NCBI GenBank assembly: GCA_026120185.1
Contig: JANUWF010001192.1
Span: 1 to 64,000 of the forward strand
Reading direction: 5' to 3'
DNA from: Voacanga thouarsii
Lineage: Eukaryota; Streptophyta; Magnoliopsida; Gentianales; Apocynaceae
DNA: 64,000 bases
Shown here: positions 1-44,271 of the stretch, piece by piece
How the letters are laid out: the number at the start of each line of letters is the position of its first letter
Position numbering within the stretch: the first letter of the stretch is position 1
Program-made: the position numbers and the translations under genes
Notes under the pieces: model-generated
Databases searched by the model: none
What the model was told of the DNA's origin: nothing
The model's input: the letters and a program-made list of their open reading frames with translations, nothing else

Positions 1-2663
1 TGTAAAATCTTTTTAGCACTTTTGCTTGTATATGTTGATTGATGAATAAATGTTCCACTCTCCGGATGTTCAATTTGTAAACCAAGGCAAAATTTGGTTT
101 TACCAAAATCCTTGATTTCAAATTCTCTTTTTAAATAATCAATTGTTTCTTGGAGCTCTTCAAGAGTTCTAATAAGATTAATATCATCAACATATATAGC
201 TAATATCACAAATTTAGAACCAGATATTTTAATAAAAACACATGGACATACCTGGTCATTTTTAAAGCCCGCTTTTAATAAATATTCACTAAGACGTGTG
301 AACCACATGCGCCCAGATTGCTTTAGGCCATATAATGATTTCTGTAACTTGATAGAGTAATTTTCACGAGGATAATGTTTATATGCTTCAGGCATATGAA
401 ATCCTTCGGGGATTTTCATGTAAACATCATTTTCTAAATTTTCATACAAGTAAGCAGTGACAACATCTAATAGACGCATATCTATCTTTTCATGTACTGC
501 CAAACTGATAAGATATCGAAGTGTAATAGCATCAACAACAGGAGAATAAGTTTCATCATAATCAATACCTGGTCTTTGTGAAAAAACTTGGGCTACTAAT
601 CTCGCTTTATATCGAACGATTTCACTCTTTTCATTGCACTTTCGCACAAATATCCATTTGTAGCCAACAAGTTTTACACCTTCTAGTGTTCGGACTGCAG
701 GTCTGAAGACTTCACGTTTTGTCAGTGCATTTAACTTCGATTGAATCGCATCTTTCCATTGCAGCCAATATTTTCTATGCCGACATTCATCAACTGATAT
801 TGGTTCAGGATCATCATTATCATGTGTAACATCAAGAGATATATTGTATGCAAATATATTATCAATAACAGTTTCTATCCGATTCCAACTTCTACCGGAA
901 GTGGTATAATTGATAGAAATTTCAGTGTTATTTTCATCAACTTCTGGTTCTTTGTCATCAGTTCTCTCTTGGTCTTTATCATTCTTTTCTTCAATATGAT
1001 CTTCTGGATCATTTAATCCTCTTTTCTTTCGAGGATTTTTTTCTTTAGAACCAAGAGGTCGGCCACGCTTCTGGCGTGTTTTTGACTCAGCAGCTATAAG
1101 TATAATATTTTGTTCTGCTGGAACTTCAATTCGAATAAAAGTATTTATAACTGGAATATGCGATTTTGTAACTCTTCTGGAGTCAACAAAAGCGTCTGGC
1201 ATTTGATTTGCAATACTTTGCAAATGAATTATCTTTTGAACTTCAAGTTCACATGCGCTTGTGAGCGGATCAAGATAATTTAATGATATTGTCCAAGCAA
1301 GATTCTTTTTATACTGTTTTGGTTCTCCCCCTAATTTAGGGAATAATGATTCATCAAAATGACAATCAGCAAATCTTGTTGTGAATACATCTCCTGTCAG
1401 GGGTTCGACATACCTGATAATAGATGAAGAATCATATCCAACGTATATCCCCTTTCTTCTTTGAGAACCCATCTTTATACGTTGGTTTGGTACAATTGGA
1501 ACATATACAGTACACCCAAAAATTCTTAAATGAACAATATTTGGTTCGGACCCAAAAGTCAATTGTAAAGGAAAGAATTTATGATAACTAGCTGGTCTTA
1601 TGCGTACAAGTGTTGCAGCATGTAAAATATCATGTCCCCAGGCAGATGTTGGGAGATTTGTTTTCATTAATAATGGTCTAACAATTAATTGTAATCGTTT
1701 AATCAAAGATTCAGCAAGACCATTTTGTGTGTGAACATGAGCTACAGGATGTTCAACATTAATCCCAATTGACATGCAATATGCATCAAAAGCATGTGAT
1801 AAAAATTCACCAACATTATCCAAACGGATATTTTTAATATGATGGTCAGGAAATTGTGCTCGTAATTTAATTATTTGAGCAAGTAATCTCGCAAACGCCA
1901 GGTTGCGAGTAGATAATAAACATACATGTGACCATCAGGATGATGCATCAATTAAGACCATAAAATATTTGAACGGTCCACATGGTGGATCAATAGGTCC
2001 ACAAATATCTCCGTGAATCCGTTCGAGAAATGTAGGACTTTCAACTCCTACTTTTACTGGTGATGGCTTAACAATTAATTTTCCTAGGGAACATGCAGTA
2101 CATGCGAATTTTTCTGATGTTAATATCCTTTTATTTTTTAAAGGATGACCATATGTATTCTCAATGATTCTTCTCATCATGGTAGATCCCGGATGACCCA
2201 ACCGGTCATGCTAAATACTAAAAGTAATAGGATCAGTAAACTTCTGGTTTACTAGATGATGAATTTCAATTGTACGTATTTTTACAAAATATAGGCCAGT
2301 AGAAAAAGACGACAGTTTTTCTAATACAGATTTCTTACCCAAATGTATTTGAGTAATATAAAGATATTCAATCCCATTTTCCTCATTTGTTTCAACATGA
2401 TACCCATTTCTGCGGATATCTTTAAAACTCAATAAATTTCTTCTGAATTTTAAGGAAAATAGTGCCTTATCAATAATAATTGTTGTTCCTTTAGGCAACA
2501 ATATACTAGCTCTTCCGGAGCCCTCAATCACATTTGCACTACCATTTATCGTATAAATATTTTATTTCTCCCATTTTGAGATCAGAAAAATATTTCTCAT
2601 TTTTTAGTATGGTGTGTGTAGTTCCACTATCAATAATGCATACATCATCATTAACAACAGCCA
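1..2663 (-). pseudogene. Copia-I pol: protease, integrase, reverse transcriptase
   Basis: Pol region of Copia-I. Protease motif DSGTTHT lies near 2630. The pre-integrase zinc region (LGHPGST, then CTAC) lies at about 2205-2090. The integrase core shows HGDICGP near 2015, RLDNVGEF near 1820 and the following acidic residue near 1717. A basic linker (RPLGSK, then a KKRG run) follows at about 1070-1020. RT shows YKARLVAQ near 615 and the catalytic YVDD at about 185-196. At 1935 a CGA arginine codon of the integrase (seen as CGA in the other copies) has become a TGA stop, and another stop lies near 2211. The copy is therefore not competent for autonomous movement as written. Confidence 0.9.
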
Positions 2664-2784
2664 TCTGAACACAAATATATATATGCAAACGTAAATATTA
2701 TTAGAATAGAATGAAAATGAAAATACAAAAATATCAGGGTGAGGCTTTAGTTCTTCTGGACACTGCCATCACCAATTAAATGGT

Positions 2785-3824
2785 CTATCCTACCGTCCGG
2801 GTGTTCAAAAAATCCGATACATCCATATGGGTAATATTGATATTAAGATCTTCGAGATCAATATCATCATCATCGGCATCATTTATTGGATGTTGAAAAA
2901 AATTTGCTTCTACATTTTTATTTTTCAATGAAGCTTGATATAATTCAACTAAATGCTTAGCCGTACGACAGTTTCGTGACCAATGACCTTTCATGCCACA
3001 TCTATAACATATATCCTCATGTTTTTCTTCAATTTCTTTTTCTTTTCCCTTATGATCTTTTTTGTTCCACTTCAGGTGGCCAGTATTTCTCACAGTTTGA
3101 TTATGATTGTGATAAGGGAAATATCAAGCGTGTCTACGACCATAACCACGACCACGGCCACGGCCATGGCCACGACCACGACTATAACGATGGCTTCTGC
3201 TAGAGCCAACAGACATTCACTTCGGGAGTCGTTGTTGAGCCGATTGATCCAGCTTCATGATTTCTCAATAATAACTCATTATTCTTCTCTCGCAATGAGG
3301 AGGGCAGTAATTAAATTTGTAAATTTTGTATACCCATTTTCTCGATATTGTTGCTGCAGGATAATATTCGAGGCATGAAAGGTGGAGAATGTCTTCTCCA
3401 ACATATCTTCATCAGTCACTTTTTCTCCACATAATTTTAATCGAGATGTAATTTTATACATTGCGGAGCTATATTCATTCACGGTTTTAAAATCTTGCAA
3501 CCTCAGGTGCAACCATTCATACCGTGCAGTGGGTAGTACGACCATCTTCAGGTGGTCAAATCTATCTTTTAAATTTACCCACAGGACATATGAATCTTTT
3601 TCGGTAAGATATTCCATTTTCAAATTTTTATCGAGATGACGACGAATAAAAATCAAAACTTTAGTCTTGTGTTGTGCAGATGCACTATTATTTGCTTGAA
3701 TAGTTTCACTAAGGCCTTCAGCATTTAGATGCATTTCTGCATCGAGAACCCATGACATATAATTTTTTCCAGAAATATCAAGGGCTACAAATTCGAATTT
3801 AGCGAGATTAGCCATAGAGATCAA
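2785..3824 (-). pseudogene. Copia-I gag (UBN2-type) with CCHC zinc knuckle
   Basis: Capsid gene of Copia-I. The longest frame starts at 3824 (MISMANLAKFEF), though the second Met at 3815 may be the true start. The N-terminal part (GKNYMSWVLDAEMHL) is the gag-polypeptide of copia type (UBN2/DUF4219 family). After an Arg/Gly/His-rich stretch, the zinc knuckle CYRCGMKGHWSRNC (CX2CX4HX4C) lies near 3000, read in a different frame. The gene is therefore interrupted by frameshifts between about 3290 and 3095. It would form virus-like particles in the cytoplasm if intact. Confidence 0.85.
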
Positions 3825-3914
3825 TAAAAGCGTACTTGTCTTCTGACTTTAATAACGGCAGAGACTCGTGCTGTCTTCTGGCTTTAATAACGGCAAAGAC
3901 TCGTGCTGATAACA

Positions 3915-4272
3915 TGTTATAAAATTTGGGTAGTGTTAGAATAAAACCTTCACACTATACACTAATAAAATTCTAACTATTCTTTACACAAGAATTTCTC
4001 TCTCTTTCTTTTCTCTCACAATTTTCTCTAATCTTTCTTTCACTAATCTTTCTTTCACAAAATAATGGTGTATTACAAGCTTAGAGAATAGCTCTATTTA
4101 TAGAGCTCTAATTAGTGGAATACATCATGGCATACATCATTTTCCACTAATCTCAATTAGTGGTGTCTCCACTAAATGGTAGACATCCATAAAAATCTTC
4201 TATAATAATTCACATAAATTCATAATTAGTGGAGCTTCCACTAATTAATGGAGATTTCAATAATTCATAACA
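3915..4272 (-). repeat. 5' LTR of Copia-I (358 bp)
   Basis: On the minus strand it begins TGTTATGAATTATTG and ends in ATAACA, the same boundaries as the other LTRs of this family in the window. It contains the palindromic TATA region (AGCTCTATAAATAGAGCT on the minus strand). The primer-binding site lies immediately to its left. It differs from the 5.8-20.9 kb LTRs by many substitutions, so this is an older insertion. Confidence 0.92.
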
Positions 4273-4277
4273 AAATT

Positions 4278-5209
4278 ATTTAAATTGAATTTATTGTGAC
4301 TATTAAATTCAGACTTTTTATGTTTTGCTAAAACAAAAAAAAGATAGTCTACAAAATTTATATTTCATCATATTATAAGACAAACATTTCTTAACTTTGA
4401 ACAAATTTTAGAGATGTTACACCCATATTCATCTAAATTTTCTACAAAAAAAAAGGAAAAAAGAAAAAATCACCAAGAAATGCTAATCTTACTGTGGAAC
4501 GCCATCTGAAATATGTTAAAGAAGAGGAAAATAGTGTAAAAAGAGATGCAAAAATTTTTTTTTATAATAACTTTATTCCTTTTCATTTTTTTTTCATTTT
4601 TGTAAGTAGAGGATATGCCCTCATAGGTATTAGGTCTCCCAGTAATCTGCTAATGATTCTGATACCTCAAGGGGCCAAAAGAAGATCAAAGATGTCGCAG
4701 GCTGTATTCCATGAACCATGGTATTTGTTGGGATAGAGCAAATAGCATCGCCACTATGTATTGCATAGGCAGCAGATGCTTTTGTAGGCATGCACGGAAT
4801 AGTTATTAGATTCGCTATTTTTACCGTCGAATCACAAATCGATTCGGACGTACTAATTCGTAGTTCTGAAACGCTTGGATTCTTTCGATTCGCGTTTCCG
4901 TTTGGTGCCATAAGCGAATCGAGAAACCAAAGAGCTAACTAAGGTGAGAGGAAGGGAACAAAGCAGGGAGATTTCGGCGGTGGAACTGAATAAGAGTAAG
5001 AGAGTTTGGCAGTGATGGAGATGGACAAGATGATAGGGATGGAACTTGTTGCAGCAACCAGGAAGGAACAAATTGTTTAATTTATAAAATTATCAACATA
5101 TCCTTCCTTTTTGTCAAATTTTTGTTTAGTCCAATTTTATTAACTTTCTATTCCTCCGACAACATAAGTATCAAATTGAGATTTCCTTTAAAATTATATG
5201 TAATTAATT
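4278..5209. other. Host intergenic segment, no clear gene
   Basis: No convincing gene. The part at about 4615-4800 has diverged relatives elsewhere in the window: 4615-4670 resembles 54965-55035, and 4690-4800 resembles 59355-59465. It therefore belongs to the duplicated flanks of the receptor-kinase genes. A 93-codon minus-strand frame (4630-4911) lies here but has no recognisable domain. The rest is AT-rich. Confidence 0.5.
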
Positions 5210-5722
5210 GCTACCCTTATAAAATTATAGACTCTCCTCCCTTTGCATATATTTAAAAAAAATCTTTAAGGACAAATAAATATTAATTTTTTATTGTATT
5301 AAAAAAGATACTTTACTTATATTTTACATTAAAAAACTTTTTCATATTCTTATGTATAATATTTCATATTATGATTTTATATCATAACATATCGAATGAA
5401 TCTAAAATCTTAGTAAATTCAATTTTTTTAAATTAAAAAATTACGTATTCGTACTCATATCGTATATTAAAACCTACTATGTTTCTAATAATTATTGAAA
5501 CAATGAAAGAGTTCACACTATAAATTAAAACGAAATAGAGAAGATGTTCCAATTTCAGCCAGCAATCAACCCCTCTTTCCTCTCTACTTGTTATGACATG
5601 ATGCTACGGATGAATCATGGAAAGCCTTTGTAGGTGCAGCCGGCAGGAGAATCCAAATGCAAATGCCCCCACAGATTGGATGACAACCCTAGCCATTATT
5701 CTCAATCATGTTATCAGCAATT
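5210..5722. repeat. Host tandem duplication, unit 1 (513 bp)
   Basis: The stretch from TTGCTACCCTTATAAAATTA at about 5208 recurs from about 5721, giving a period of 513 bp. The unit ends in a relic (about 5555-5690) of the 3' end of an LRK10L kinase gene: its sequence parallels 50085-50185 around the stop codon of the intact gene. The second unit is interrupted by the 15-kb copia insertion and resumes at 20879. Confidence 0.85.
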
Positions 5723-5804
5723 GCTACTCCTATAAAATTATAAACTCTCATCACTTTGCATATATTTTTTATTAAAAAAAAATCTTTAAGGACAAATGAA
5801 TATC
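5723..5804. repeat. Host tandem duplication, unit 2, left piece
   Basis: First 82 bp of the second tandem unit, ending in ATATC, the target duplication of the composite copia insertion. The empty site can be read from unit 1, where the same sequence continues without interruption. Confidence 0.85.
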
Positions 5805-6171
5805 TGTTATAAAATTAGGGTAGTGTTAGAATAAAATCTACACACTACACACTAAGAAAATTCTAACTATTCTTTGCACAAGAATTTCTCTTCAAACTTC
5901 TCTCTTTCTTTTTCTCACAATTCTTTCTCTAATCTTTCTTTCACTAATCTTTCTTTCACAAAATGATGGTGTATTACAAGCTTAGAGAATAGCTCTATTT
6001 ATAGAGCTCTAATTAGTGAAATACATCATGGCATACATCATCTTCAACTAATCTCAATTAATGGTGTCTCCACTAAATGGTGGACATCCATAAAAATCTT
6101 CTAATAATTCACATAAATCCATAATTAGTGGAGCCTCCACTAATTAATGGAGATTCCAATAATTCATAACA
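5805..6171 (-). repeat. Left (3') LTR of composite element (367 bp)
   Basis: Reads TGTTATAAAATTAGGG on the plus strand and ends in CATAACA. It is the same length as the LTRs at 9797 and 10165. By eye the three differ by about one base, so all are recent. A polypurine tract (CCAAGGGGAGTG on the minus strand) sits directly to the right. Confidence 0.93.
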
Positions 6172-6778
6172 CTCCCCTTGGATGTCCATCCATACATAAA
6201 GAATATGCCTCGTTAAAACCTTACTAGATAAAAACCCAGTGGGAAAAAAAATCTAGTGAAGGAAAAAGAGTACACTATTCTATATGCATGTTTATTACTC
6301 CCCCTGATGAGATGATTCCTTTAAATCTTTAAACCGACGCATACCGATTTTATATCTCAACTTTTCAAATGTTGCCGTCGGTAAAGTCTTCGTGAAAATA
6401 TCTGCGAGGTTGTCACATGACCGAATTTGTAGCACATCAATTTCACATTTCTTCTGGAGTTCATGAGTAAAGAAGAATTTTGGTGAAATATGTTTTGTCT
6501 GATCTCCTTTAATATATCCTCCTCGTAATTGATCTATGCAAGCTGCATTGTCTTCATAAAGAGGAGTTGGAATACATTTGATTAATGATAATCCACAACT
6601 TTCTCGGATATAATGAATCATGGATCTTAGCCATACACATTCTCGACTTGCTTCATGAATGGCTATAATTTCAGCATGATTTGAAGAAGTAGCTGCTATA
6701 GATTGTTTCGTAGAACGCCATGATATAGCAGTATTTCCACATGTAAATAGATAGCCCGTTTGAGAACGTGCTTTAAGA
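6172..6778 (-). pseudogene. Copia RNase H 3' fragment
   Basis: 3' end of a copia pol gene: the C-terminal RNase H domain with ISWRSTKQSIAATSSNHAE, the acidic YEDNAAC motif and the tail FTKTLPTATFEKLRYKIGM. It breaks off at 6778, where RKD sequence begins. The same segment, from 10 bp inside the LTR to this point, recurs at 12203-12815, flanking the permuted insertion as a direct repeat of about 615 bp. Confidence 0.85.
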
Positions 6779-6828
6779 GGAACAGTATCAAAAGCAGTCT
6801 CTTGTAGGAGCAGATCAACTTGGTCCAA
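6295..6828 (-). CDS. Chimeric ORF: RKD exon 2 fused to copia RNase H
   Basis: Open frame of 177 codons. Residues 1-18 (MDQVDLLLQETAFDTVPL) are RKD exon-2 sequence, matching DFQFELLIQQISFDTVPL in the RKD gene at 46.3 kb. From residue 19 (KARSQTGYLF) it is copia RNase H. The join at 6778/6779 keeps both native frames. Upstream on the same strand lie the RKD splice acceptor (6851-6852), exon 1 and the RKD promoter, so a spliced chimeric transcript is conceivable. Whether it is expressed cannot be seen. It is most simply a by-product of the rearrangement. Confidence 0.6.
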   Translation of the reverse strand: MDQVDLLLQETAFDTVPLKARSQTGYLFTCGNTAISWRSTKQSIAATSSNHAEIIAIHEASRECVWLRSMIHYIRESCGLSLIKCIPTPLYEDNAACIDQLRGGYIKGDQTKHISPKFFFTHELQKKCEIDVLQIRSCDNLADIFTKTLPTATFEKLRYKIGMRRFKDLKESSHQGE

Positions 6829-7278
6829 AGCAGTATGTTCAAAACTTCCACTGATTTACATAAAAAAACAAACCAAAAGAGAGTTTAATTTCATTATCAA
6901 GCACACTAAAAACAAATGGAAGCCATCAAAGGTATCTCACCCGAAATTAGGAGGAAGTGGTTGGTTTGGAAAGGAAAACATATCAAAATCTTCTCGCGTT
7001 CGAATTAGACGAAGCGGTTGGTTTGAAAAGGAAAACATATCAAAATCTTCCGCGTTCGAATTAGGCGAAGCGGTTGGTTTGGAAAGGAAAACATATCAAA
7101 ATCTTCTGTGTTCGAATTAGGCAGAAGCGGTTGGTTTGGAAATGAAAATACATCAACATCTGCTGCAGAAACTAAGTTAAAATTTGACCATGTCTCAAAT
7201 GAATTACGAGTCTCCATATCTGCTTTGTGATTTTTGTTTTTGATGTTTACTAATGACTGATAACTGATATATATATCG

Positions 7279-7316
<38 letters not shown>

Positions 7317-7496
7317 TTATGAGGAAGAAGAAGAGGTAGATGGTAGGTAGAGGGTCTGGAGGAGAAGAAAAGACAAGAGAGGAAGAGGAAAAGTTCAGTA
7401 CGGGAAGAGTGAAAAAAAAAAAAAGGAGATATTTTTCTTGGCATTTCCTACTTGTCATCATTGTCTTATATTTCTTTTCTTATTCTCTTGTGAAAT
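6779..7496 (-). pseudogene. RKD-a promoter, exon 1 and start of exon 2 (captured)
   Basis: 5' half of a captured RWP-RK (RKD-type) gene. Exon 1 runs 7217-6941 (METRNSFETWSNFNLVSAAD) and ends at a good donor (G|GTGAGATACC). The intron runs 6940-6851 and exon 2 starts at 6850. Upstream are a (TA)n tract and a CT/GA-rich leader (7266-7440) shared with the other copies. The gene is antisense to the surrounding pol sequence, which begins at about 7497. Acidic/aromatic FSFPNQPL repeats fill exon 1. The gene is broken at 6779. Confidence 0.75.
6952..7160 (-). repeat. Exonic minisatellite, about 57-bp unit, about 4 copies
   Basis: Tandem units each encoding a version of EDFDMFSFPNQPLPPNSNT in RKD-a exon 1. 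The same array occurs at 18443-18655 in the other copy. The units differ mainly at CAG and CTG positions. Repeated acidic/aromatic patches are typical of activation domains, but that role is inferred. Confidence 0.75.
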
Positions 7497-9690
7497 CATT
7501 ATTCCCTAAATTAGGGGGAATAAAAACAAGTACAAGAAAGATCGTGATTGGACAACATCATTAAATTATCTTGATCCACATACAAGCGCGTGTGAACTTG
7601 AAGTTCAAAAGATAATTCATTTGTAAAGCATTGCAAATCAAATGCCGTACACTTTTGTTGACTCTAGAAGAGTAACAAAATCGCATATGCCGCTTATAAA
7701 TGCTCCTATTCTAATTGAAGTTCCAACAGAACAAAAGATTTTACATATAGTCGCTGAGCCAAAAGCACGCCGTAAGCGTGGCCGACCTCTTGGTTCTAAA
7801 GATAAAAATCCTCGAAAGAAAAGAGGATTAAATGATCCGAAGATCATATTGAAGAAAAGAATGATAAAGACCAAGAGAGAACCGATGACAAAGAACCGTA
7901 AGTTGATGAAAGTAACACCGAAATTTCTATCAATTATACCACTTCCGTAGAAGTTGGAATCGGATAGAAACTCGTTATTGATAATATATTTGCATACAAT
8001 ATATCTCTTGATGTTACACAGATAATGATGATCCCGAACCAATATCGCTTGATGAATGTCGGCATAGAAAAGATTGGCTGCAATGGAAAGATGCGATTCA
8101 ATCGGAGTTAAATGCACCGGCAAAACGTGAAGTCTTCGGACTCGCAGTCCGAACACCGTAAGGTATAAAACCCGTTGGCTACAAATGGATATTTGTGCGA
8201 AAGCGCAATGAAAAGAGTGAAATCGTTCGATATAAAGCGCGATTAGTAGCCCAAGGTTTTTCACAAAGACCAGGTATTGATTATGATGAAACTTATTCTC
8301 CCGTTGTTGATGCTATTACACTCCGATATCTTATCGCTTAGCAAGACATGAAAAGATAGATATGCGCCTATTAGATGTTGTCACCGCTACTTGTATGGAA
8401 ATTTAGAAAATGATGTTTACATGAAAATCCCCGAAGGATTTCATATGCCCGAAGCATATAAACATTATCCTCGTGAAAATTACTCCATCAAGTTGCGTAA
8501 ATCATTATATGGCCTCGAAGCAACTGGGCGCATGTGGTTTACACGTCTTAGTGAATATTTATTGAAAGCGGGATTTAAAAATGACCAGGTATGTCCATGC
8601 GTTTTTATTAAGAAATCTGGTTCTAAATTTGTGATATTAGCTATATATGTTGATGATATTAATCTTATTGGAACTCCCGAAGAGCTCCAAGAAACAATTG
8701 ATTATTTAAAAAGAGAATTCGAAATCAAGGATTTTGGTAAAACCAAATTTTGCCTTGGTTTACAAATTGAACATTTGGAGAGTGGAACATTTATTCATCA
8801 ATCAACATATACAAAGAAAAGTGCTAAAAAGATTTTACATGGACAAAGCACATCCATTGAGTATTCCAATGATCGTGCGATCATTAAATGTGGATAAAGA
8901 TCCTTTCCGACCTCAAGAAAATGATGAAGAACTCCTTGGTCCTCGAAGTACCATATCTCAAGTGCAATTGGTGCATTGATGTATCTTGCTAATAACACAC
9001 GACCCGATATTGCTTTTGTCGTCAATTTATTAGCAAGATTTAGTTCTTCACCAACACGACGACATTGGAATGGAATTAAACAAGTCCTTCGATATCTCCA
9101 AGGTACAATTGATCTCGGATTATTTTATTCAAATAAAACCAATCCAACATTGATAGGTTATGCAGATGTCGGTTATTTATCTCGATCCACATAAAGCACG
9201 TTCTCAAACGGGCTATCTATTTACATGTGGAAATACTGCTATATCATGGCGTTCTACGAAACAATCTATAGCAGCTACTTCTTCAAATCATGCTAAAATT
9301 ATAGCCATTCATGAAGCAAGTCGAGAATGTGTATGGCTAAGATCCATGATTCATTATATCCGAGAAAGTTGTGGATTATCATCAATCAAAGGTATTCCAA
9401 CTCCTCTTTATGAAGACAATGCAGCTTGCATAGCTCAATTACGAGGAGGATATATTAAAGGAGATCGGACAAAACATATTTCACCAAAATTCTTCTTTAC
9501 TCATGAACTCCAGAAGAAATGTGAAATTGATGTGCTACAAATTCGGTCATGTGACAACCTCGCAGATATTTTCACGAAGACTTTACCGACGGCAACATTT
9601 GAAAAGTTGAGATATAAAATCGGTATGCGTCGGTTTAAAGATTTAAAGGAATCATCTCATCAGGGGGGAGTAATAAACATACATATAGAA
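7497..9690 (+). pseudogene. RKD-copia pol' (integrase C-terminus, RT, RNase H)
   Basis: Plus-strand pol remnant beginning in the integrase C-terminal region (SLFPKL). It continues through the basic linker (RPLGSKDKNPRKKRG), RT with YKARLVAQGFSQRPGIDYDETY near 8230-8290 and YVDD at about 8648-8659, and RNase H (NTAISWRSTKQSI to FTKTLPTATFEKL) at about 9190-9660. Gag C-terminus, protease and the integrase catalytic core are absent, replaced by the RKD gene, so the element is non-autonomous. Several 1-2 bp indels break the frame, many of them at CTG/CAG. Confidence 0.85.
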
Positions 9691-9783
9691 TAGTGTACTC
9701 TTTTTCCTTCACTAGATTTTTTTCCCACTGGGTTTTTATCTAGTAAGGTTTTAACGAGGCATATTCTTTATGTATGGATGGAC

Positions 9784-9796
9784 ATCCAAGGGGGAG
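9784..9796 (+). promoter_or_regulatory. Polypurine tract
   Basis: Purine-rich stretch ending in AAGGGGGAGTG immediately before the LTR; it primes plus-strand DNA synthesis. The same tract precedes the other 3' LTRs of the family (as CTCCCCCTTGG on the plus strand in minus copies). Confidence 0.85.
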
Positions 9797-10163
9797 TGTT
9801 ATGAATTATTGGAATCTCCATTAATTAGTGGAGGCTCCACTAATTATGGATTTATGTGAATTATTAGAAGATTTTTATGGATGTCCACCATTTAGTGGAG
9901 ACACCATTAATTGAGATTAGTTGAAGATGATGTATGCCATGATGTATTTCACTAATTAGAGCTCTATAAATAGAGCTATTCTCTAAGCTTGTAATACACC
10001 ATCATTTTGTGAAAGAAAGATTAGTGAAAGAAAGATTAGAGAAAGAATTGTGAGAGAAAGAAAGAGAGAAGTTTGAAGAGAAATTCTTGTGCAAAGAATA
10101 GTTAGAATTTTCTTAGTGTGTAGTGTGTAGATTTTATTCTAACACTACCCTAATTTTATAACA
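9797..10163 (+). repeat. LTR, first of the head-to-tail pair (367 bp)
   Basis: Begins TGTTATGAATTATTGG after the polypurine tract and ends TTTTATAACA. By eye it is identical to the next LTR. It is in the position of a 3' LTR. Confidence 0.95.
9965..9972 (+). promoter_or_regulatory. LTR TATA box in a palindrome
   Basis: TATAAATA centred in AGCTCTATAAATAGAGCT, an inverted repeat. The same site is at 10333-10340 and in every LTR of the family. It lies about 169 bp into the LTR and is the likely start-site element for the genomic RNA. Its symmetry would place a TATA-like sequence on both strands. Confidence 0.7.
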
Positions 10164-10164
10164 A

Positions 10165-10531
10165 TGTTATGAATTATTGGAATCTCCATTAATTAGTGGA
10201 GGCTCCACTAATTATGGATTTATGTGAATTATTAGAAGATTTTTATGGATGTCCACCATTTAGTGGAGACACCATTAATTGAGATTAGTTGAAGATGATG
10301 TATGCCATGATGTATTTCACTAATTAGAGCTCTATAAATAGAGCTATTCTCTAAGCTTGTAATACACCATCATTTTGTGAAAGAAAGATTAGTGAAAGAA
10401 AGATTAGAGAAAGAATTGTGAGAGAAAGAAAGAGAGAAGTTTGAAGAGAAATTCTTGTGCAAAGAATAGTTAGAATTTTCTTAGTGTGTAGTGTGTAGAT
10501 TTTATTCTAACACTACCCTAATTTTATAACA
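10165..10531 (+). repeat. LTR, second of the head-to-tail pair (367 bp)
   Basis: Separated from the previous LTR by one A (10164), with no 5-bp target duplication between them. It is followed directly by the primer-binding site, so it is in the position of a 5' LTR. The order PPT-LTR-A-LTR-PBS is a two-LTR junction. Confidence 0.95.
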
Positions 10532-10547
10532 CGTTATCAGCACGAGT
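10532..10547 (+). promoter_or_regulatory. Primer-binding site (tRNA-Ile anticodon-arm type)
   Basis: CGTTATCAGCACGAG directly abuts the LTR end. It is not the usual plant copia site TGGTATCAGAGC (tRNA-iMet 3' end). Its complement, CTCGTGCTGATAACG, matches the anticodon arm of eukaryotic tRNA-Ile (recalled as TCGTGCTAATAACG) except for a C opposite wobble position 34, which is inosine in that tRNA. The same site follows the LTRs at 20517 and 44272 and, with changes, 3915. Confidence 0.6.
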
Positions 10548-11172
10548 CTCTCGCCGTTATTAAAGCCAGAAGACAGGTACGCATTTATTGATCTCGCTAA
10601 ATTCGAATTTGTAACTCTTGATATTTCTGAAAAAAAATTTTTTATATGTCATACAAAAATGCATCTAAATGCTAAAAAAAAAGGAGATCCATATGTCATG
10701 TGGATAAAAAGAAAGATGTGACCACCTGAAGATGGTAGTACTACCCACTCGCACGGTATGAATGGTTGCACCTGAAGTTGCAAGATTGTAAAACCGTGAA
10801 CTCCGTGATGTATAAAACTACATCTTAGTTAAAAATTTTACGGAGAAAAAGTTACTGATGAAGTTATATTGGAGAAGACATTCTCCACTTTTCATACCTC
10901 GAATATTGTCCTGCAAGAATAATATCGAGAAAAATGGTATCCAAAATTGACAAATTTAACATGAGTTATTATTGAGAAATCATGAAGCTGCATGAATCGG
11001 CTCAACAAAGACTCCTAAGTGAATGTTGTTGGCTCCAGCAGAAGCTCATCGTTATAGTCGTAGTTGTGGCAAGTGGCCGTGGTTATGGTCATGGACACAC
11101 TCGATATTTCCCTTATCACGGAGAAATACGGCCACCTGAAGTGGAACAGAAAAGATAATAAGGGAAAAAGAT
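10548..11172 (+). pseudogene. RKD-copia gag' remnant
   Basis: Degenerate plus-strand gag. Pieces of LDISGKNYMSWVLDAKMHL and of the RG-rich and PFHNYNQ regions can be followed, but there are internal deletions and many stops. It corresponds to 19885-20516 in the other copy, including the same deletions, so the decay preceded duplication. It ends where RKD 3' flanking sequence begins. Confidence 0.75.
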
Positions 11173-12202
11173 ATTTCCATTAATAATAAGCATCACATCT
11201 TTTATTCATAGCACTAGTGTTCATATGAACTTGATGATACATGCTTATAGTTGCTCTTTTGTAATTGAGCTGACAAATGTAAGATGAAGGTTTGTAATTG
11301 TTCTTTTTCAATATTTACATTAGAGGACGACAAACAATTAGTAATTATGGACTTCAGCTCCTCTTTTTCGACATCCTCCTCCTTTTCTTTCCCTTTGAGC
11401 CAAAGATCGAGACTAGCAGACAGAAGTAGCCGTAAAATTATCTGCGAAATGAGTCTTGAGATTTTATGATCTCCTTAAGTTTATTATATTTCTTATTATA
11501 TTTGGCCTTGAAGCATGCTTGTCTCAATTTCGTGTTTGGTCCTCTAACCGCGTATTAGGACTTTCTTCCACCAACCGTTTTTCACATTCCAAGCATCGCA
11601 ATGGCTTCTTGTAATTTCTTCTCACCCATATGTCCTCCTTCTTCTTTATTTTGCATATCCCGTAAATCGAAGTGATATCATCGGTTATTTACTTATAAAT
11701 CTTTCATAGTTTCATACTTACAAATTATAAGTATGTATGAGAGAGAACCTGAACATTCTTGATTATGGTCTCCAAGCTCACCAATTTCCTGTGAGGCCAT
11801 CGACGAATTCCTAACTCCCTACATCTTTTCTTGAGACGGGTTATGCCAATATTCAGCTTCTTTGGTCGCGCTCATGATTGGTAGGTAAAAGTACCGCGAA
11901 ATTGTTTCTCTTGATAGTGTTTGAGAGTTATTGCCCTTCTTCTCTCTCTCGCTCTTAATCATCTTCTTCTCCCCGAGAATTTTGTCTCGCAATAATATCT
12001 TGAACTTCGATATTATGCATTTCATGAGTACTTACTCCGACTTCGTTGCCAAGACCACTCATTATTTCTCCTAGAAAAAGAAAATAATATCGCAAAGGTA
12101 ATACCATTCAAAATCCATGTTTAAATGTATAATAACTCGGAAACATATTCTGCTTTGTTCAAAATCCATTAGAGAGTAGAAAGGATCATGCACAAGCATA
12201 TT
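11173..12202 (-). pseudogene. RKD-a 3' half (RWP-RK domain and coiled coil)
   Basis: Antisense to the element. From right to left: end of exon 2 (from 12202), intron, exon 3 with the RWP-RK domain (about 12053-11765; [18 protein letters not shown], then the RRWPHRK region), intron, and exon 4 (about 11658-11230) encoding the coiled-coil and Glu/Lys-rich tail. Compared with the plus copy at 19.0-19.8 kb it keeps the correct CAGGAAATTGG after RRWPH. It shows CGG instead of CAG at the exon-4 acceptor (11659) and frameshifts at other CAG/CTG sites. Confidence 0.75.
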
Positions 12203-15200
12203 CATAACACTCCCCCTTGGATGTCCATCCATTACATAAAGAATATGCCTCGTTAAAACCTTACTAGATAAAAACCCAAAGGGGAAAAAAATCTAGTGAA
12301 GGAAAAAGAGTACACTATTCTATATGTCCATTTATTACTCCCCCGATGAGATGATTCCTTTAAATCTTTAAACCGACGCATACCGATTTTATATCTCAAC
12401 TTTTCAAATGTTGCAGTCGGTAAAGTCTTCGTGAAAATATCTCGCGAGGTTATCACATGACCGAATTTGTAGCACATCAATTTCACCTTTCTTCCGGAGT
12501 TCATGAGTAAAGAAGAATTTTGGTGAAATATGTTTTGTCCGATCTCCTTTAATATATCCTCCTCGTAATTGAGCTATGCAAGCCGCATTGTCTTCATAAA
12601 GAGGAGTTGGAATACCTTTGATTGATGATAATCCACAACTTTCTCTGACATAATGAATCATGGATCTTAGCCATACACATTCTCGACTTGCTTCATGAAT
12701 GGCTATAATTTCAAGATGATTTGAAGAAGTAGTCGCTATAGATTGTTTCGTAGAACGCCATGATATAGCAAAGATTTCCACATGTAAATAGATAGCCCGT
12801 TTGAGAACGTGCTTTATGTGGATCGATAAATAACCAAAGATCTCGCATAACCTATCAATGTTGGACTGGTTTTATTTGAATAAAATAATCCGAGATCAAT
12901 TGTACCTTGGAGATATCGAAGGACTTGTTTAATTCCATTCCAATGTCGTCGTGTTGGTGAAGAACTAAATCTTGCTAATAAATTGACAACAAAAGCAATA
13001 TCAGTGCCGTGTGTTATTAGCAAGATACATCAATGCACCAATTGCACCGAGATATGGTACTTCAGACCAAGGAGTTCTTCATCATTTTCTTGAGGTCTGA
13101 AAGGATCTTTATCCACATTTAATGATCTGCACGATCATTGGAATACTCAATGGATGTGCTTTGTCCATGTAAAATCTTTTAGCACTTTTGTCGTATATGT
13201 TGATTGATGAATAAATGTTCCACTCTCCAAATGTTCAATTTGTAAACCAAGGCAAAATTTGGTTTTACCAAAATCCTTGATTTCGAATTCTCTTTTAAAT
13301 AATCAATTGTTTCTTGGAGCTCTTCAGAGTTCCAATAAGATTAATATCATCAACATATATAGCTAATATCACAAATTTAGAACCAGCATTTCTTAATAAA
13401 AACGCATGGACATACCCGGTCATTTTTAAATCCCGCTTTCAATAAATATTCACTAAGACGTGTGAACCACATGCGCCCGCATTGCTTCAGTGCCATATAA
13501 TGATTTCGCAACTTGATGGAGTAATTTTCACGAGGATAATGTTTATATGCTTCGTGCATATGAAATCCTTCTGGGATTTTCATGTAAACATCATTTTCTA
13601 AATTTCCATACAAGTAAGCAAAGTGACAACATCTAATAGGCGCATATCTATCTTTTCATGTACCGCCAAACCGATAAGATATCGGAGTGTAATAGCATCA
13701 ACAACAGGAGAATAAGTTTCATCATAATCAATACCTGGTCTTTGTGAAAAACCTTGGGCTACTAATCGCGCTTTATATCGAACGATTTCACTCTTTTCAT
13801 TGCGCTTTCGCACAAATATCCATTTGTAGCCAACAGGTTTTATACCTTCCGGTGTTCGGACCGCAGTCCGAAGACTTCACGTTTTGCCGCTGCATTTAAC
13901 TCCGATTGAATCGCATCTTTCCATTGCAGCCAATCTTTTCTATGCCGACATTCATCAATCGATATTGGTTCAGGATCATCATTATCCCGTGTAACATCAA
14001 GAGATATATTGTATGCAAATATATTATCAATAACAGCTTTCTATCCGATTCCAACTTCTACCTGAAGTGGTATAATTGATAGAAATTTCAGTGTTACTTT
14101 CATCAACTTCTCGGTTCTTTGTCATCAGCTCTCTCTTGGTCTTTATCATTCTTTTCTTCAATATGATCTTCTGGATCATTTAATCCTCTTTTCTTTCGAG
14201 GATTTTTATCTTTAGAACCAAGAGGTCGGCCACGCTTCCGGCGTGTTTTTGACTCAAGCAGCTATAGGTATAATATTTTGTTCTCGCTGGAACTTCAATT
14301 CGAATAGGAGCATTTATAGTCGGAATATGCGATTTTGTAACTCTTCTCGGAGTCAACAAAAGCTGCCTCGGCATTTGATTTGCAATGCTTTGCAAATGAA
14401 TTATCTTTTGAACTTCAAGTTCACATGCGCTTGTGCGCGGATCAAGATAATTTAATGATGTTGTCCAATCAAGATCCTTTTTATACCGTTTTGGGTTCTC
14501 CCCTAATTTAGGGAATAATGATTCATCAAAATGACAATCAGCAAATCTTGCCGTGAATACATCTCCCGTCGTGGGTTCAACATACCCGATAATAGAGGGA
14601 GAATCATATCCAACGTATATCCCCTTTCTTCTTTGAGGACCCATCTTTGTACGTTGGTTTGGTGCAATTGGAATATATACAAGACACCCAAAAATTCTTA
14701 AATGAGCAATATTTGGTTCTCGACCCAAAAGCCAATTGCAAAGGAGAGAATTTATGATAACTAGCCGGTCTTATACGTACAAGTGTTGCAAAGCATGTAG
14801 AATAGCATGTCCTCAGTGCAGATGTTGGGAGATTTGTTTTCATTAATAATGGTCTAGCAATTAATTGTAATCGTTTAATCAAAGATTCAAGAAGACCATT
14901 CTGTGTGTGAACATGAGCTACAGGATGTTCAACATTAATCCCAATTGACATGCAATATGCATCAAAAGCATGTGATGAAAATTCACCAAACATTATCCAA
15001 ACGGATATTTTTAATGTGATGGTCCGGAAATTGTGCTCGTAATTTAATTATTTGAGCAAGTAATCTCGCAAACGCCAAAGTTGCGAGTAGATAATAAACA
15101 TACATGTGACCATCGGGATGATGCATCAATTAAGACCATAAAATATTTGAACGGTCCACATGGTGGATCAATAGGTCCACAAATATCTCCGTGAACTGCT

Positions 15201-15850
15201 TCGAGAAATGTAGGACTTTCAGCTCCTACTTTTACCGGTGATGGTTTAACAATTAATTTTCCTAGGGAACATGCAAGACATGCGAATTTTTCTCGATGTT
15301 AATATCCTTTTATTTTTTAAAGGATGACCATGTGTATTCTCAATGATTCTTCTCATCATGGTAGATCCCGATGACCCAACCGGTCATGCCAAATGCTAAA
15401 AGTAATAGGATCAAGAAACTTCTGGTTTACTAGATGATGAATTTCAATTGTACGTATTTTTACAAAATATAGACCAAGAGAAAAAGACGGCAGCTTTTTC
15501 TAATACCGATTTCTTACCCAAATGCATTTGAGTAATAAAAAGATGCTCAATCCCATTTTCCTCATTTGTTTCAACATGATACCCATTTCTCGCTGATATC
15601 TTTAAAACTCAATAAATTTCTTCTCGGATTTTGAGGAAAATAGTGCCTTATCAATAATAATTGTTGTTCCTTTAGGCAACAATATACTAGCTCTTCCGGA
15701 GCCCTCAATTACATTTGCACTACCGTTTATCGTATAAATATTTATTTCTCCCATTTTGAGATCGTAAAAATATTTCTCATTTTTTAGTATGGTGTGTGTA
15801 GTTCCACTATCAATAATGCATACATCATCATTAATAACAGCCATCCGAAC
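12203..15850 (-). pseudogene. Copia-III pol body, ordinary family member
   Basis: Minus-strand copia from PPT to protease. A 10-bp stub of the LTR (ATTCATAACA) is followed by PPT, RNase H (12253-12815), RT (about 12830-13830, YVDD near 13350), linker, integrase (about 14400-15420) and protease (15602-15844, IDSGTTHTILKNEKYF). The reading frame is broken repeatedly by 1-2 bp changes, mostly at CTG/CAG. Its own 3' LTR is lost except for the stub, which joins RKD sequence at 12202/12203. Confidence 0.85.
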
Positions 15851-15950
15851 ACAAATATATATATGTAAACGTAAATATTATTAGAATAGAATGAAAATGA
15901 AAATACAAAAATATCGTGGTGAGGCTTTAGTTCTTTTGGACACCGCCATC

Positions 15951-16350
15951 ACCAATTAAATGGTCTATCCTACCGTCCGGGTGTTCAAAAATCCGATACA
16001 TCCATATGGGTAATATTGATATTAAGATCTTCGTGATCACTATCGTCATCCTCAACATTATTTATTGGATGTTGAGAAAAATTTGCTTCCACATTTTTAT
16101 TTTTCAATGAAGCTTGATACAATTCAACTAAATGCTTAGCCGTACGTACGCTTTCGTGACCAATGACCTTTCATGCCACATCTATAACATATATCCTCAT
16201 GCTTTTCTTCAATTTCTTTTTCTTTTCCCTTTTGATCTTTTCTCGCTCCACTTCAGTGGCCGTATTTCTCACAGCTTGATTATAATTGTGATAAGGGAAA
16301 TATCGAGCGTGACTACGACCATAACCACGACCACGGCCACGGCCACATAC
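15951..16350 (-). pseudogene. Copia-III gag C-terminal fragment
   Basis: Minus-strand gag piece with the CCHC knuckle region near 16180 and the start of the RG-rich stretch. It stops abruptly at about 16350 inside the repetitive CCACGGCCACGG tract, where an inverted pol fragment begins. The N-terminal gag and 5' LTR of this body are missing. Confidence 0.75.
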
Positions 16351-16545
16351 AAGCGCGTGTGAACTTGAAGTTCAAAAGATAATTCATTTGTAAAGCATTG
16401 CAAATCAAATGCCAGACCCTTTTGTTGACTCTAGAAGAGTAACAAAATCACATATGCCAGTTATAAATGCTCATATTCTAATTGAAGTTCCAACAGAACA
16501 AAAGATTTTACATATAGTCACTGAGCTAAAAGCACGCCGTAAGCG
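16351..16545 (+). other. Inverted integrase-C fragment (rearrangement joint)
   Basis: A 195-bp plus-strand piece equivalent to about 7577-7782 (integrase C-terminus to basic linker). It is wedged between minus-strand gag on the left and minus-strand RNase H start on the right. Both ends are abrupt. It marks a complex joint, consistent with template switching during repair. Confidence 0.75.
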
Positions 16546-18116
16546 TGGCGTAAATAACCAAAGATCTCGCATAACCTATCAATGTTGGACTGGTTTTATT
16601 TGAATAAAATAATCCGAGATCAATTGTACCTTGGAGATATCGAAGGACTTGTTTAATTCCATTCCAATGTCGTCGTGTTGGTGAAGAACTAAATCTTGCT
16701 AATAAATTGACAAAGAAAAGCAATATCAGTGTCGTGTGTTATTAGCAAGATACATCAATGCACCAATTGCACTCGAGATATGGTACTGCAGACCAAGGAG
16801 TTCTTCATCATTTTCTTGAGGTCTGAAAGGATCTTTATCCACATTTAATGATCGCACGATCATTGGAATACTCAATGGATGTGCTTTGTCCATGTAAAAT
16901 CTTTTTAGCACTTTTGCTGTATATGTTGATTGATGAATAAATGTTCCACTCTCCAAATGTTCAATTTGTAAACCAAGGCAAAATTTGGTTTTACCAAAAT
17001 CCTTGATTTCGAATTCTCTTTTTAAATAATCAATTGTTTCTTGGAGCTCTTCAGAGTTCCAATAAGATTAATATCATCAACATATATAGCTAATATCACA
17101 AATTTAGAACCAGCATTTCTTAATAAAAACGCATGGACATACCCGGTCATTTTTAAATCCCGCTTTCAATAAATATTCACTAAGACGTGTAAACCACATG
17201 CGCCCGTATTGCTTCAGGCCATATAATGATTTCTCGCAACTTGATGGAGTAATTTTCACGAGGATAATGTTTATATGCTTCGTGCATATGAAATCCTTCG
17301 GGATTTTCATGTAAACATCATTTTCTAAATTTCCATACAAGTAAGCAAAGTGACAACATCTAATAGGCGCATATCTATCTTTTCATGTACCGCCAAACCG
17401 ATAAGATATCGGAGTGTAATAGCATCAACAGAGTTTTATACTCTTTTGGTGTTCGGACCTGCAGTCCGAAGACTTCACGTTTTGCCGCTGCATTTAACTC
17501 CGATTGAATCGCATCTTTCCATTGCAGCCAATCTTTTCTATGCCGACATTCATCAACTGATATTGGTTCAGGATCATCATTATCCCGTGTAACATCAAGA
17601 GATATATTGTATGCAAATATATTATCAATAACAGCTTTCTATCCGATTCCAACTTCTACCTGAAGTGGTATAATTGATAGAAATTTCAGTGTTACTTTCA
17701 TCAACTTCTGGTTCTTTGTCATCGTTCTCTCTTGGTCTTTATCATTCTTTTCTTCAATATGATCTTCTCGGATCATTTAATCCTCTTTTCTTTCGAGGAT
17801 TTTTATCTTTAGAACCAAGAGGTCGGCCACGCTTCCGCATGCTTTTGGCTCACAGCACTATATGTAAAATCTTTTGTTCCGTTGGAACTTCAATTAGAAT
17901 AGGAGCATTTATAATCGGCATATGCGATTTTGTTACTCTTCTAGAGTCAACAAAAGTGTCTCGGCATTTGATTTGCAATGCTTTACAAATGAATTATCTT
18001 TTGAACTTCAAGTTCACACGCGCTTGTATGTGGATCAAGATAATTTAATGATGTTGTCCAATCACGATCTTTCTTGTACTCGTTTCTATTCTCCCCTAAT
18101 TTAGGGAATAATGATT
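16546..18116 (-). pseudogene. RKD-copia pol' of the unpermuted copy
   Basis: Minus-strand pol' from the start of RNase H (16546) through RT (YVDD near 17070), linker and integrase C-terminus. It ends at about 18116 in the sequence TTAGGGAATAATGATT, where the RKD promoter region begins. The junction is the same as at about 7497 in the permuted copy. Frameshifts are frequent. It lacks about 130 bp of RT around 17430 relative to the other copies. Confidence 0.8.
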
Positions 18117-18288
18117 TCACAAGAGAATAAGAAAAGAAATATAAGAAAATGATGACAAGTAGGAAATGCCAAGAAAAATATCTCCTTTTTTTTTTTTTTC
18201 ACTCTTCCCTGCACCGACTTTTCCTCTTCCTCTCTTGTCTTTTCTTCTCCTCCGACCCTCTACCTACCATCTACCTCTTCTTCTTCCT

Positions 18289-18289
<1 letters not shown>

Positions 18290-18323
<34 letters not shown>

Positions 18324-18335
18324 ATCGATATATAT
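18290..18335 (+). repeat. (TA)n tract in RKD-a promoter
   Basis: ATACATG(TA)n tract about 55-95 bp upstream of the RKD-a start codon at 18388. It matches the tract at 7266-7312 in the permuted copy and the shorter GGGATATATATATC near 46420 in RKD-b. It may supply the TATA box. Confidence 0.5.
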
Positions 18336-18387
18336 ATCAGCTTATCGATCATTAGTAAACATCAAAAACAAAAATCACAAAGCGTAT

Positions 18388-19840
18388 ATGGAGACTCGTA
18401 ATTCATTTGAGACATGGTCAAATTTTGACTTAGTTTCTGCAGCAGATGTTGATGTATTTTCATTTCCAAACCAACCGCTTCGCCTAATTCGAACACGTAA
18501 GATTTTGATATGTTTTCCTTTCCAAACCAACCGCTTCGCCTAATTCGAACGCAGTAAGATTTTGATATGTTTTCCTTTTCAAACCAACCGCTTCGTCTAA
18601 TTCGAACGCAGAAGATTTTGATATGTTTTCCTTTCCAAACCAACCACTTCCTCCTAATTTCGTGTGAGATACCTTTGATGGCTTCCATTTGTTTTTAGTG
18701 TGCTTGATAATGAAATTAAACTCTCTTTTGGTTTGTTTTTTTATGTAAATCAATGGAAGTTTTGAACATACCGCTTTGGACCAAGTTGATCCGCTCCTAC
18801 AAGAGACTCGCTTTTGATACTCGTTCCTCTTGATACTATTCCTTTGAATGAGGATATGCTTGTGCATGATCCTTTCTACTCTCTAATGGATTTTGAACAA
18901 AGCCGTAATATGTTTCCAGTGTTATTATACATTTAAACATGGATTTTGAATGGTATTACCTTTATCGATATTATTTTCTTTTTCTAGGAGAAATAATGAG
19001 TGGTCTTGGCAATGAAGTCGGAGTAAGTACTCATGAAATGCATAATATCGAAGTTCAAGATATTATTGCAGTACAAAATTCCCGGGGAGAAGAAGATGAT
19101 TAAGAGGCAGAGAGAGAAGAAGGGCAATAACTCTCAAACACTATCAAGAGAAACAATTTCGCAGTACTTTTACCTACCAATCATGAGCGCAGCCAAAGAA
19201 CTGAATATTGGCATAACCCGTCTCAAGAAAAGATGTAGGGAGTTAGGAATTCGTCGATGGCCTCACAGAAATTGGTGAGCTTGGAGACCATAATCAAGAA
19301 TGTTCAGGTTCTCTCTCATACATACTTATAATTTGTAAGTATGAAACTATGAAAGATTTATAAGTAAATAACCGATGATATCACTTCGATTTACAGGATA
19401 TGCAAAATAAAGAAGAAGGAGGACATATGGCTGAGAAGAAATTACAAGAAGCCATTGCGATACTGGAATGTGAAAAACAGTTGGTGGAAGAAAGTCCTAA
19501 TACGCAGTTAGAGGACCAAACACAGAAATTGAGACAAGCATGCTTCAAGGCCAAATATAATAAGAAATATAATAAACTTAAGGAGATCATAAAATCTCAA
19601 GACTCATTTCGCAGTAATTTTACGGCTACTTCTGCTGCTAGTCTCGATGCTGGCTCAAAAGGGAAAGAAAAGGAGGAGGATGTCGAAAAAGAGGAGTTGA
19701 AGTCCATAATTACTAATTGTTTGTCGTCCTCTAATGTAAATATTGAAAAAGAACAATTACAAACCTTCATCTTACATTTGTCGACTCAATTACAAAAGAG
19801 CAACTATAAGCATGTATCATCAAGTTCATATGAACACTAG
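18388..19840 (+). pseudogene. RKD-like: RKD-a: RWP-RK transcription factor gene captured by copia
   Basis: Complete captured gene, antisense to its host retrotransposon, with promoter (from about 18117) and 3' flank (to about 19884). Exon 1: 18388-about 18665, with FSFPNQPL repeats. Exon 2: from about 18754. Exon 3: 18988-19307, containing the RWP-RK domain ([20 protein letters not shown], then the RRWPHR region), the DNA-binding signature of RKD proteins. Exon 4: 19397-19840, a coiled coil (AEKKLQEAIAILECEKQLVE) and acidic tail. An AATAAA lies near 19849. The exon-2 acceptor reads CAA instead of CAG, and a G is missing after RRWPHR, giving a frameshift. Both are correct in the other copy, so the damage may be sequencing error. 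RKD factors act in the nucleus in egg cell and early embryo. Confidence 0.8.
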
Positions 19841-19884
19841 TGCTATGAATAAAAGATGTGATGCTTATTATTAATGGAAATATC

Positions 19885-20516
19885 TTTTTCCCTTATTATC
19901 TTTTCTGTTCCACTTCAGGTGGCCAGTATTTCTCTGTGATAAGGGAAATATCGAGTGTGTCCATGACCATAACCACGGCCACTGCCACAACTACGACTAT
20001 AACGATGGCTTCTACTGGAGCCAACAGCATTCACTTCGGGAGTGCTTGTTGAGCCAGTTCATCTGGCTTCATGATTTCTCAATAATAACTCATGTTAAAT
20101 TTGTCAATTTGGGATACCATTTTTCTCGATATTGTTACTGCAGGACAATATTCGAGGTATGAAAAGTGGAGAATGTCTTCTCCAATATAACTTCATCAGT
20201 AACTTTTTCTCCGCAAAATTTTTAACTAAGATGTAGTTTTATACATCACGGAGTTCACGGTTTTACAATCTTGCAACTTCAGGTGCAACCATTCATACCG
20301 TGCAGTGGGTAGTACGACCATCTTCAGGTGGTCAAATCTTTCTTTTTATCCACATGACATATGGATCTCCTTTTTTTTAGCATTTAGATGCATTTTTGTA
20401 TGACATATAAATTTTTTTTCAGAAATATCAAGGGCTACAAATTCGAATTTAGCGAGATCAATAAATGCGTACTGTCTTCCGGCTTTAATAACGAGCAGAG
20501 ACTCGTGCTGATAACG
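19885..20516 (-). pseudogene. RKD-copia gag' of the unpermuted copy
   Basis: Minus-strand decayed gag between the RKD 3' flank and the primer site. It contains the recognisable CCACTTCAGGTGGCC and TCATGATTTCTCAATAATAA blocks but no open frame. It shares deletions with 10548-11172. The primer site lies at its right edge (about 20501-20516). Confidence 0.75.
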
Positions 20517-20873
20517 TGTTATAAAATTAGGGTAGTGTTAGAATAAAATCTACACACTACACACTAAGAAAATTCTAACTATTCTTTGCACAAGAATTTC
20601 TCTTCAAACTTCTCTCTTTCTTTCTCTCACAATTCTTTCTCTAATCTTTCTTTCACTAATCTTTCTTTCACAAAATGATGGTGTATTACAAGCTTAGAGA
20701 ATAGCTCTATTTATAGAGCTCTAATTAGTGAAATACATCATGGCATACATCATCTTCAATTAATGGTGTCTCCACTAAATGGTGGACATCCATAAAAATC
20801 TTCTAATAATTCACATAAATCCATAATTAGTGGAGCCTCCACTAATTAATGGAGATTCCAATAATTCATAACA
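20517..20873 (-). repeat. Right (5') LTR of composite element (357 bp)
   Basis: Reads TGTTATAAAATTAGGG at its left and ends CATAACA, followed by ATATC. It is 10 bp shorter than its partners through loss of CTAATCTCAA near 20757. It closes the composite insertion. Confidence 0.93.
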
Positions 20874-20878
20874 ATATC

Positions 20879-39424: not shown

Positions 39425-39559
39425 CTCCCCCTTGGATGTCCATCCATTACATAAAGAATATGCCTCGTTAAAACCTTACTAGATAAAAACTCAGTGGGAA
39501 AAAAAATCTAGTGAAGGAAAAATAGTACACTATTCTATATGTCTGTTTATTACTCCCCC

Positions 39560-43010: not shown

Positions 43011-43130
43011 GAACACAATATATATATATATATATATATGTAAACGTAAATATTATTAGAATAGAATGAAAATGAAAATACAAAAATATCGAGGTGAGGC
43101 TTTAGTTCTTACGGACACTTGCCATCACCA

Positions 43131-44179: not shown

Positions 44180-44271
44180 TAAATGCGTACCTGTCTTTTG
44201 GCTTTGGTAACGGCAGAAACTCGTGCTTAGTCTTCTGGCTTTTGTACCGGTAGAGACTCGTGCTGATAACG

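Follow-up and report, generated by a model that had tools for sequence, protein, structure and literature searches.

A rotated copia-type element with abutting LTRs in Voacanga thouarsii, probably a two-LTR circle captured by a sister element

We analyzed a 64-kb window of a contig of Voacanga thouarsii, and all coordinates given here are positions within this window. From 6775 to 12201 (plus strand) it contains a copia-type retrotransposon which carries a captured RKD gene and whose parts stand in rotated order, with two complete long terminal repeats (LTRs) abutting in its interior. Most probably, a two-LTR circle of this RKD-carrying element was cut once inside RKD. Together with two other pieces from its family, it would then have been inserted where the pol of a sister element, here named E, was broken. 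An earlier note, based on the sequence alone, had proposed that a two-LTR circle was opened once in RKD exon 2 and captured by end joining. Our analysis supports this proposal, which fits the five joints examined.

The rotated segment, here referred to as the circle, is composed of the following parts. The copies A and F named in the list are further copia copies, and cDNA stands for complementary DNA.

6775-12201, plus strand: probable opened two-LTR circle, a complete RKD-copia unit less 22 bp, rotated (from sequence matches)
6776-7493, minus strand: RKD 5' half with upstream region, exon 1 with ~57-bp repeats, intron 1 and part of exon 2 (match to 18831-18117 of E; exon limits by eye)
7494-9787, plus strand: pol', from the C-terminal part of integrase to RNase H, with domains delimited by comparison and by eye (the match to F begins at 7494)
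9788-9796, plus strand: polypurine tract (PPT) AAGGGGGAG, immediately 5' of the LTR (from the sequence)
9797-10163, plus strand: LTR 1, the 3' LTR of the cDNA (identical to 10165-10531)
10164, plus strand: single A at the LTR-LTR joint (supplied by neither neighbouring base)
10165-10531, plus strand: LTR 2, the 5' LTR of the cDNA (from the sequence)
10532-10546, plus strand: putative primer-site position directly 3' of the LTR (by position)
10547-11168, plus strand: gag' remnant (matches to gag of A and F; its end is the last match to A)
11169-12201, minus strand: RKD 3' half with part of the RWP-RK domain (2.9e-13 in 11728-11871, profile positions 20-49 of 49)

Both LTRs were identical at 367 of 367 positions with only the A between them, and tandem-repeat analysis described the pair as a 368-bp tandem of 2.0 copies with 100% matches. 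The 27-base joint of LTR, A and LTR occurred once in the window with up to three mismatches allowed, and in none of 100 shuffles. A search for it in viral_contigs gave 0 matches, which says little for a plant element. Since the PPT side ends with G and the primer side begins with C, the A matches neither neighbour and is best seen as a non-templated base.

The rotation appears as three inverse matches to E, namely 6775-8177 to 18831-17426, 8305-9179 to 17430-16551 and 10165-12201 to 20873-18854. Together with the LTR identity these bear out the order and the LTR-A-LTR joint given in the earlier note, which had placed the start of the segment at 6779 instead of 6775/6776. Likewise confirmed was its observation that both outer ends lie in RKD and miss about 22 bp between them, the missing part being 18832-18853 of E. 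With a full unit of 5,449 bp, the chance that two independent breaks fall so close is about 0.008 (2 x 22 / 5,449), calculated post hoc. A single break in a circle, on the other hand, accounts for outer ends only 22 bp apart.

The joint, the rotated order and the end spacing are directly seen. Complete LTRs stand tail to head with one base gained, and one complete element runs once round, its ends 22 bp short of meeting. A two-LTR circle is the simplest reading we found that accounts for the LTR-A-LTR joint as well as for outer ends 22 bp apart. Autointegration was rejected, as the LTR termini are joined to each other and none of them to an internal site. A tandem with a shared LTR was rejected as well, because two full LTRs abut with the A between them.

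The recipient element E is split into two parts (5805-6775 and 16551-20873), both on the minus strand:

5800-5804, no strand: left target duplication ATATC of E (equals 20874-20878; alignment of the empty site with host copy 5206-5370)
5805-6171, minus strand: 3' LTR of E (comparison with the circle LTRs)
6172-6775, minus strand: PPT and terminal RNase H part of pol, as far as the break (inverse match to the circle; joint J1)
16551-18116, minus strand: pol' of E (sequence matches)
18117-19885, plus strand: captured RKD, introns included (by eye), antisense to E (delimited by the loss and return of similarity to A and F; RWP-RK 8.3e-21 in 19027-19275)
19886-20516, minus strand: gag' and primer-site position of E (sequence matches)
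20517-20873, minus strand: 5' LTR of E with a 10-bp deletion (comparison with the circle LTRs)
20874-20878, no strand: right target duplication ATATC of E (equals the left copy)

As a whole, E is an integrase-mediated insertion with a 5-bp duplication, ATATC, beside its TG...CA LTR ends. When joined across E, the flanks matched the neighbouring host tandem copy with 86.9% identity over 527 bp and no gap at the insertion point. The 3' LTR of E differed from the circle LTRs by one substitution in 367, and its 5' LTR was alike except for the deletion. The stretch 5805-6781, LTR included, was 98.8% identical (raw) to 9186-10163 inverted. The host sequence itself forms a tandem duplication (5206-5804 and 20874-21316, ~87% alike), and E sits in the second copy.

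The earlier note had taken 16.5-20.9 kb for the unpermuted parental unit. This region is only the 5' part of E, and the 3' part is found at 5805-6775, so that the rotated segment lies inside its own sister. Furthermore, E lacks 132 bp of pol which the circle holds (8178-8309). In its present form it is thus a sister only; as the source of the circle it was rejected, unless the loss came later. A break in another copia copy had also been suggested as the site of capture. More precisely, this recipient is E (5805-20873), which itself carries RKD, and the circle is adjoined there by two further captured pieces.

The pol region of E stops at 6775 and resumes at 16551, with 10 bp lost according to comparison with copy D. 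In between lies a filler of 9,775 bp, consisting of the opened circle (plus), D (minus) and a 207-bp pol piece (plus):

12200-16346, minus strand: D, a captured copia body that begins in the zinc-finger region of gag (by eye) and includes the PPT and 10 bp of LTR (12200-16345 matches 39415-43523; joints J2 and J3)
16343-16549, plus strand: captured 207-bp pol piece of the RKD-copia subfamily (matches 7576-7782 and, inverted, 18033-17826; joint J4)

Four joints connect these pieces. E and the circle share an A (J1), the circle and D share AT (J2), and D and the pol piece share CCA or CCAC depending on the own continuation of D (J3). Between the pol piece and E (J4) there is no overlap and one extra G. 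The overlaps therefore amount to 1, 2, 3-4 and 0 bp, which, with the 10 bp lost in E, is the pattern of filler inserted by non-homologous end joining (NHEJ) or with the aid of microhomology. J2 falls 10 bp inside the LTR of D, and J1, J3 and J4 touch no LTR. Like the duplication of E and the 10-bp loss, these short overlaps of 0-4 bp are seen directly, and all five joints (J1-J4 and the LTR-LTR joint) look like end joining.

D has no complete LTR of its own. Judged by differences away from CAG/CTG sites (see below; here a site in any aligned row was counted, a wider definition than in the counts given there), it is a mosaic of E-like and F-like parts. Its reverse transcriptase-RNase H part is close to E and the circle (3 and 4 differences) and far from F (20), whereas the C-terminal part of integrase is closer to F (4) than to E (8). 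The segment matching the 207-bp piece shows 0 differences from F and 7 from E; from RNase H to the PPT the distances to E, the circle and F are similar (8, 6 and 9, respectively). The end of D, 10 bp past the PPT/LTR border, is near the expected plus-strand start of reverse transcription.

For the formation of this structure we propose that a linear cDNA would have been circularised by NHEJ, the A being added as a non-templated base. The circle would then have opened in RKD exon 2 at a single break with slight resection, and together with D and the pol piece it may have entered E as filler through end joining aided by microhomology. Less firmly, we infer that E was already chromosomal at the time of the break. 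In published work, plant LTR-LTR joints with small indels were assigned to NHEJ (PMC9324142), and two-LTR circles of Ty1 require DNA ligase IV (review, PMC12786077). Capture of Ty cDNA fragments at breaks by NHEJ has been described in yeast (PMC10802722), and in Arabidopsis the copia element EVD forms circles that are chimeric or truncated (PMC10462705).

The same RKD gene occupies one and the same position in E and in the circle; it runs antisense to the element and has kept its introns (exon limits by eye). Similarity of E to A and F breaks off at 18116 and resumes at 19886 for A and at 19935 for F. Captured RKD with its introns and upstream sequence occupies a region which in F runs from the end of gag into integrase. 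Repeats of ~57 bp in exon 1 are located at 6945-7161 in the circle and 18444-18659 in E. At least two RKD-bearing copies are present in the window (18117-19885, and 6776-7493 plus 11169-12201). The element is thus a gene-transducing LTR retrotransposon with a host gene inside it in more than one copy, based on the RWP-RK domain in E and a partial one in the circle. Its membership in Ty1/copia is shown by Retrotran_gag_2 in F and A and by RVT_2 in F and the circle (8391-8897, 1.2e-24). In total, copies of the copia family fill 24.9 of the 64 kb.

RKD factors are known from egg-cell and embryo identity. RKD relatives were 39-81% identical (11 matches among 20 candidates); for the C-terminal part of the captured RKD, none of 122 candidates matched at an expect value of 0.001. 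Our literature search for RKD and RWP-RK in connection with Copia retrotransposons found no report.

A separate RKD-like gene is located at 44742-46400 (RWP-RK 3.9e-21), with a 274-bp tandem repeat of 4.1 copies. Over the longer matches it is 76-80% alike to the captured RKD. The copia element F (39084-44627, target duplication ATTAC) lies on the same strand, ~115 bp downstream of the stop codon of this open reading frame (ORF).

It is possible, if rather unlikely, that the pieces were joined before integration. In the extrachromosomal pool, a broken linear cDNA of E would then have acquired D, the pol piece and the opened circle, and a chimera of 15 kb would have integrated via the outer LTRs of E. 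This is a variant in timing which overlaps with capture by a chromosomal E, and the sequence fits it equally well: all four partners come from one family, and both LTR ends of E are intact with the 5-bp duplication. Additionally, insertions of truncated two-LTR copia copies are described for Arabidopsis, two of them with clear duplications (PMC10462705). However, since the family fills so much of the window (24.9/64 kb), a chromosomal break inside one of its members is not improbable, and no positive mark of the order in question was found. If true, 'dead-end' circles would be a route for stacking and re-inserting captured host genes, in this case two RKD copies.

We regard it as improbable that assembly or artefact reads produced the joints. 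Such chimeras would be favoured by young, near-identical copies in both orientations and by error-rich sequence, and signs of the latter were found. In the comparison of E with the circle, 70 of the 111 difference events touch CAG/CTG (18.9 expected; rank 1 of 32 trinucleotide classes), often as small indels, with 31/44, 26/40, 10/17 and 3/10 in the individual segments. The copia pair A-F behaved alike (60/135, rank 1), and the small, same-strand comparison of D and E gave 5/13 (rank 2). Three control duplications outside the copia family showed no such concentration (1/25, 25/122 and 7/34; ranks 32, 29 and 18, respectively); by blastn, the second of these matched neither F nor A nor the 5' part of E. 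CCG/CGG, GCA/TGC and ACG/CGT were likewise enriched in the E-circle set, perhaps partly from overlap with CAG/CTG sites. The LTRs contain no CAG/CTG and are nearly identical, and the internal divergence of E and the circle is 2-6% of columns.

This pattern suggests a methylation-linked base-calling error, as would be expected from nanopore reads of CHG-methylated plant repeats. Internal divergence is accordingly overstated and frameshifts in the copia elements are unreliable. An age estimate from internal divergence was dropped, since 70/111 differences fall at CAG/CTG. In the copia copies at 1-4272, 5805-20873 and 39084-44627 the differences cluster at CAG/CTG and include many indels; many of the frameshifts may be false.

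Assemblers normally switch within long identical stretches. The joints analyzed here have overlaps of 0-4 bp, which speaks against an assembly origin, and the duplication of E, the 10-bp loss and the 22-bp spacing make biological sense.

Replication-based template switching, of the type microhomology-mediated break-induced replication or fork stalling and template switching, would have copied the pieces in succession without ligation. It agrees with the short overlaps, the alternating orientations and the multiple pieces. From linear genomic copies, however, the template would have to change precisely where one LTR ends and another starts, with the extra A, and copying round a two-LTR circle to end 22 bp short, which is possible, still requires the circle. 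We therefore consider template switching a quite improbable source of the structure.

Least credible, and hardly to be expected, are two side-by-side insertions, each truncated later in RKD. One element would have to land 1 bp beside an LTR end, the LTRs would have to be identical, and the two truncations would have to arise independently yet only 22 bp from each other (~0.008). The lack of a 5-bp duplication between the LTRs, on which the earlier note had relied, is not decisive alone, because a duplication AACAA (10160-10164) could be hidden by overlap with the LTR end, and the second element lacks its far end. Its conclusion that separate insertion is unlikely stands, owing to the 22-bp coincidence and the 1-base LTR spacing.

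Several points weigh against a captured two-LTR circle. The structure was examined in a single assembly, whose copia elements contain many small error-like differences, and the probability of 0.008 is an after-the-fact figure. One repair must take up three separate fragments, or repairs must have occurred in series. Of the 10 E-circle events in the final 610 bp of pol, 6-7 lie outside CAG/CTG, so that real divergence between E and the circle is present there. Moreover, two-LTR circles are not universal: one yeast study of extrachromosomal circular DNA (eccDNA) saw no sign of two-LTR Ty circles (PMC4751563), and in the rice blast fungus autointegration is the main way in which several families form circles (PMC9694575).

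Circles with two LTRs are commonly seen as by-products that serve to indicate activity. A circle opened away from its LTR joint and present as a heritable copy would, if true, mean chromosomal return without integrase acting at that joint. An integrated rotated two-LTR copy was not found in the literature searched, which took in few subscription journals and no bioRxiv. Caulimovirid genomes are viral and without LTRs, in which they differ from the circle described here. As we propose for our case, circular reverse-transcribing DNA of endogenous caulimovirids has been proposed to enter plant chromosomes as filler, by NHEJ or microhomology-mediated joining (PMC10377300).

The two-LTR circles found in plant eccDNA (HOPPLA, Alex1 and Alex3 of carrot, and EVD) share the tail-to-head joint attributed to NHEJ, in carrot with small indels (PMC10959353, PMC9324142, PMC10462705). 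Those circles are free, whereas here the joint is part of an assembled genome and the circle was opened elsewhere. Capture of Ty1 cDNA at yeast double-strand breaks resembles our case in that retrotransposon cDNA serves as NHEJ filler with microhomology; it is described for fragments and incomplete cDNA and not, as here, for a complete opened two-LTR circle (PMC10802722). For HIV-1, two-LTR circles were proposed as an integration reserve and thus, as we propose here, to re-enter the chromosome. There, however, integrase is proposed to open the LTR-LTR joint and restore the linear form, whereas in our segment the joint is intact and the opening internal (PMC4372172). Tandem arrays of LTR retrotransposons are similar in that several units of one family form a complex structure enclosed by a target duplication; they have been proposed to arise by recombination or when tandem products insert. 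They share one internal LTR, in contrast to the two full abutting LTRs and the rotated unit found here (PMC11899658). The term 'circularly permuted' is used in a different sense in PMC9258317.

Apart from the copia family, the window contains ORFs with DUF4216 and Transpos_assoc domains (26710-30282), which suggest a decayed CACTA-type DNA transposon. One or more LRK10L-like receptor-like kinase genes with kinase, WAK_assoc and GUB_WAK_bind domains are located at 50145-54508. For the receptor ectodomain, 30 matches were obtained among 1,196 candidates, 18 of them from named species at 35-54% identity. Of these 18, 16 belong to asterids and two (Vitis and Euphorbia) do not.

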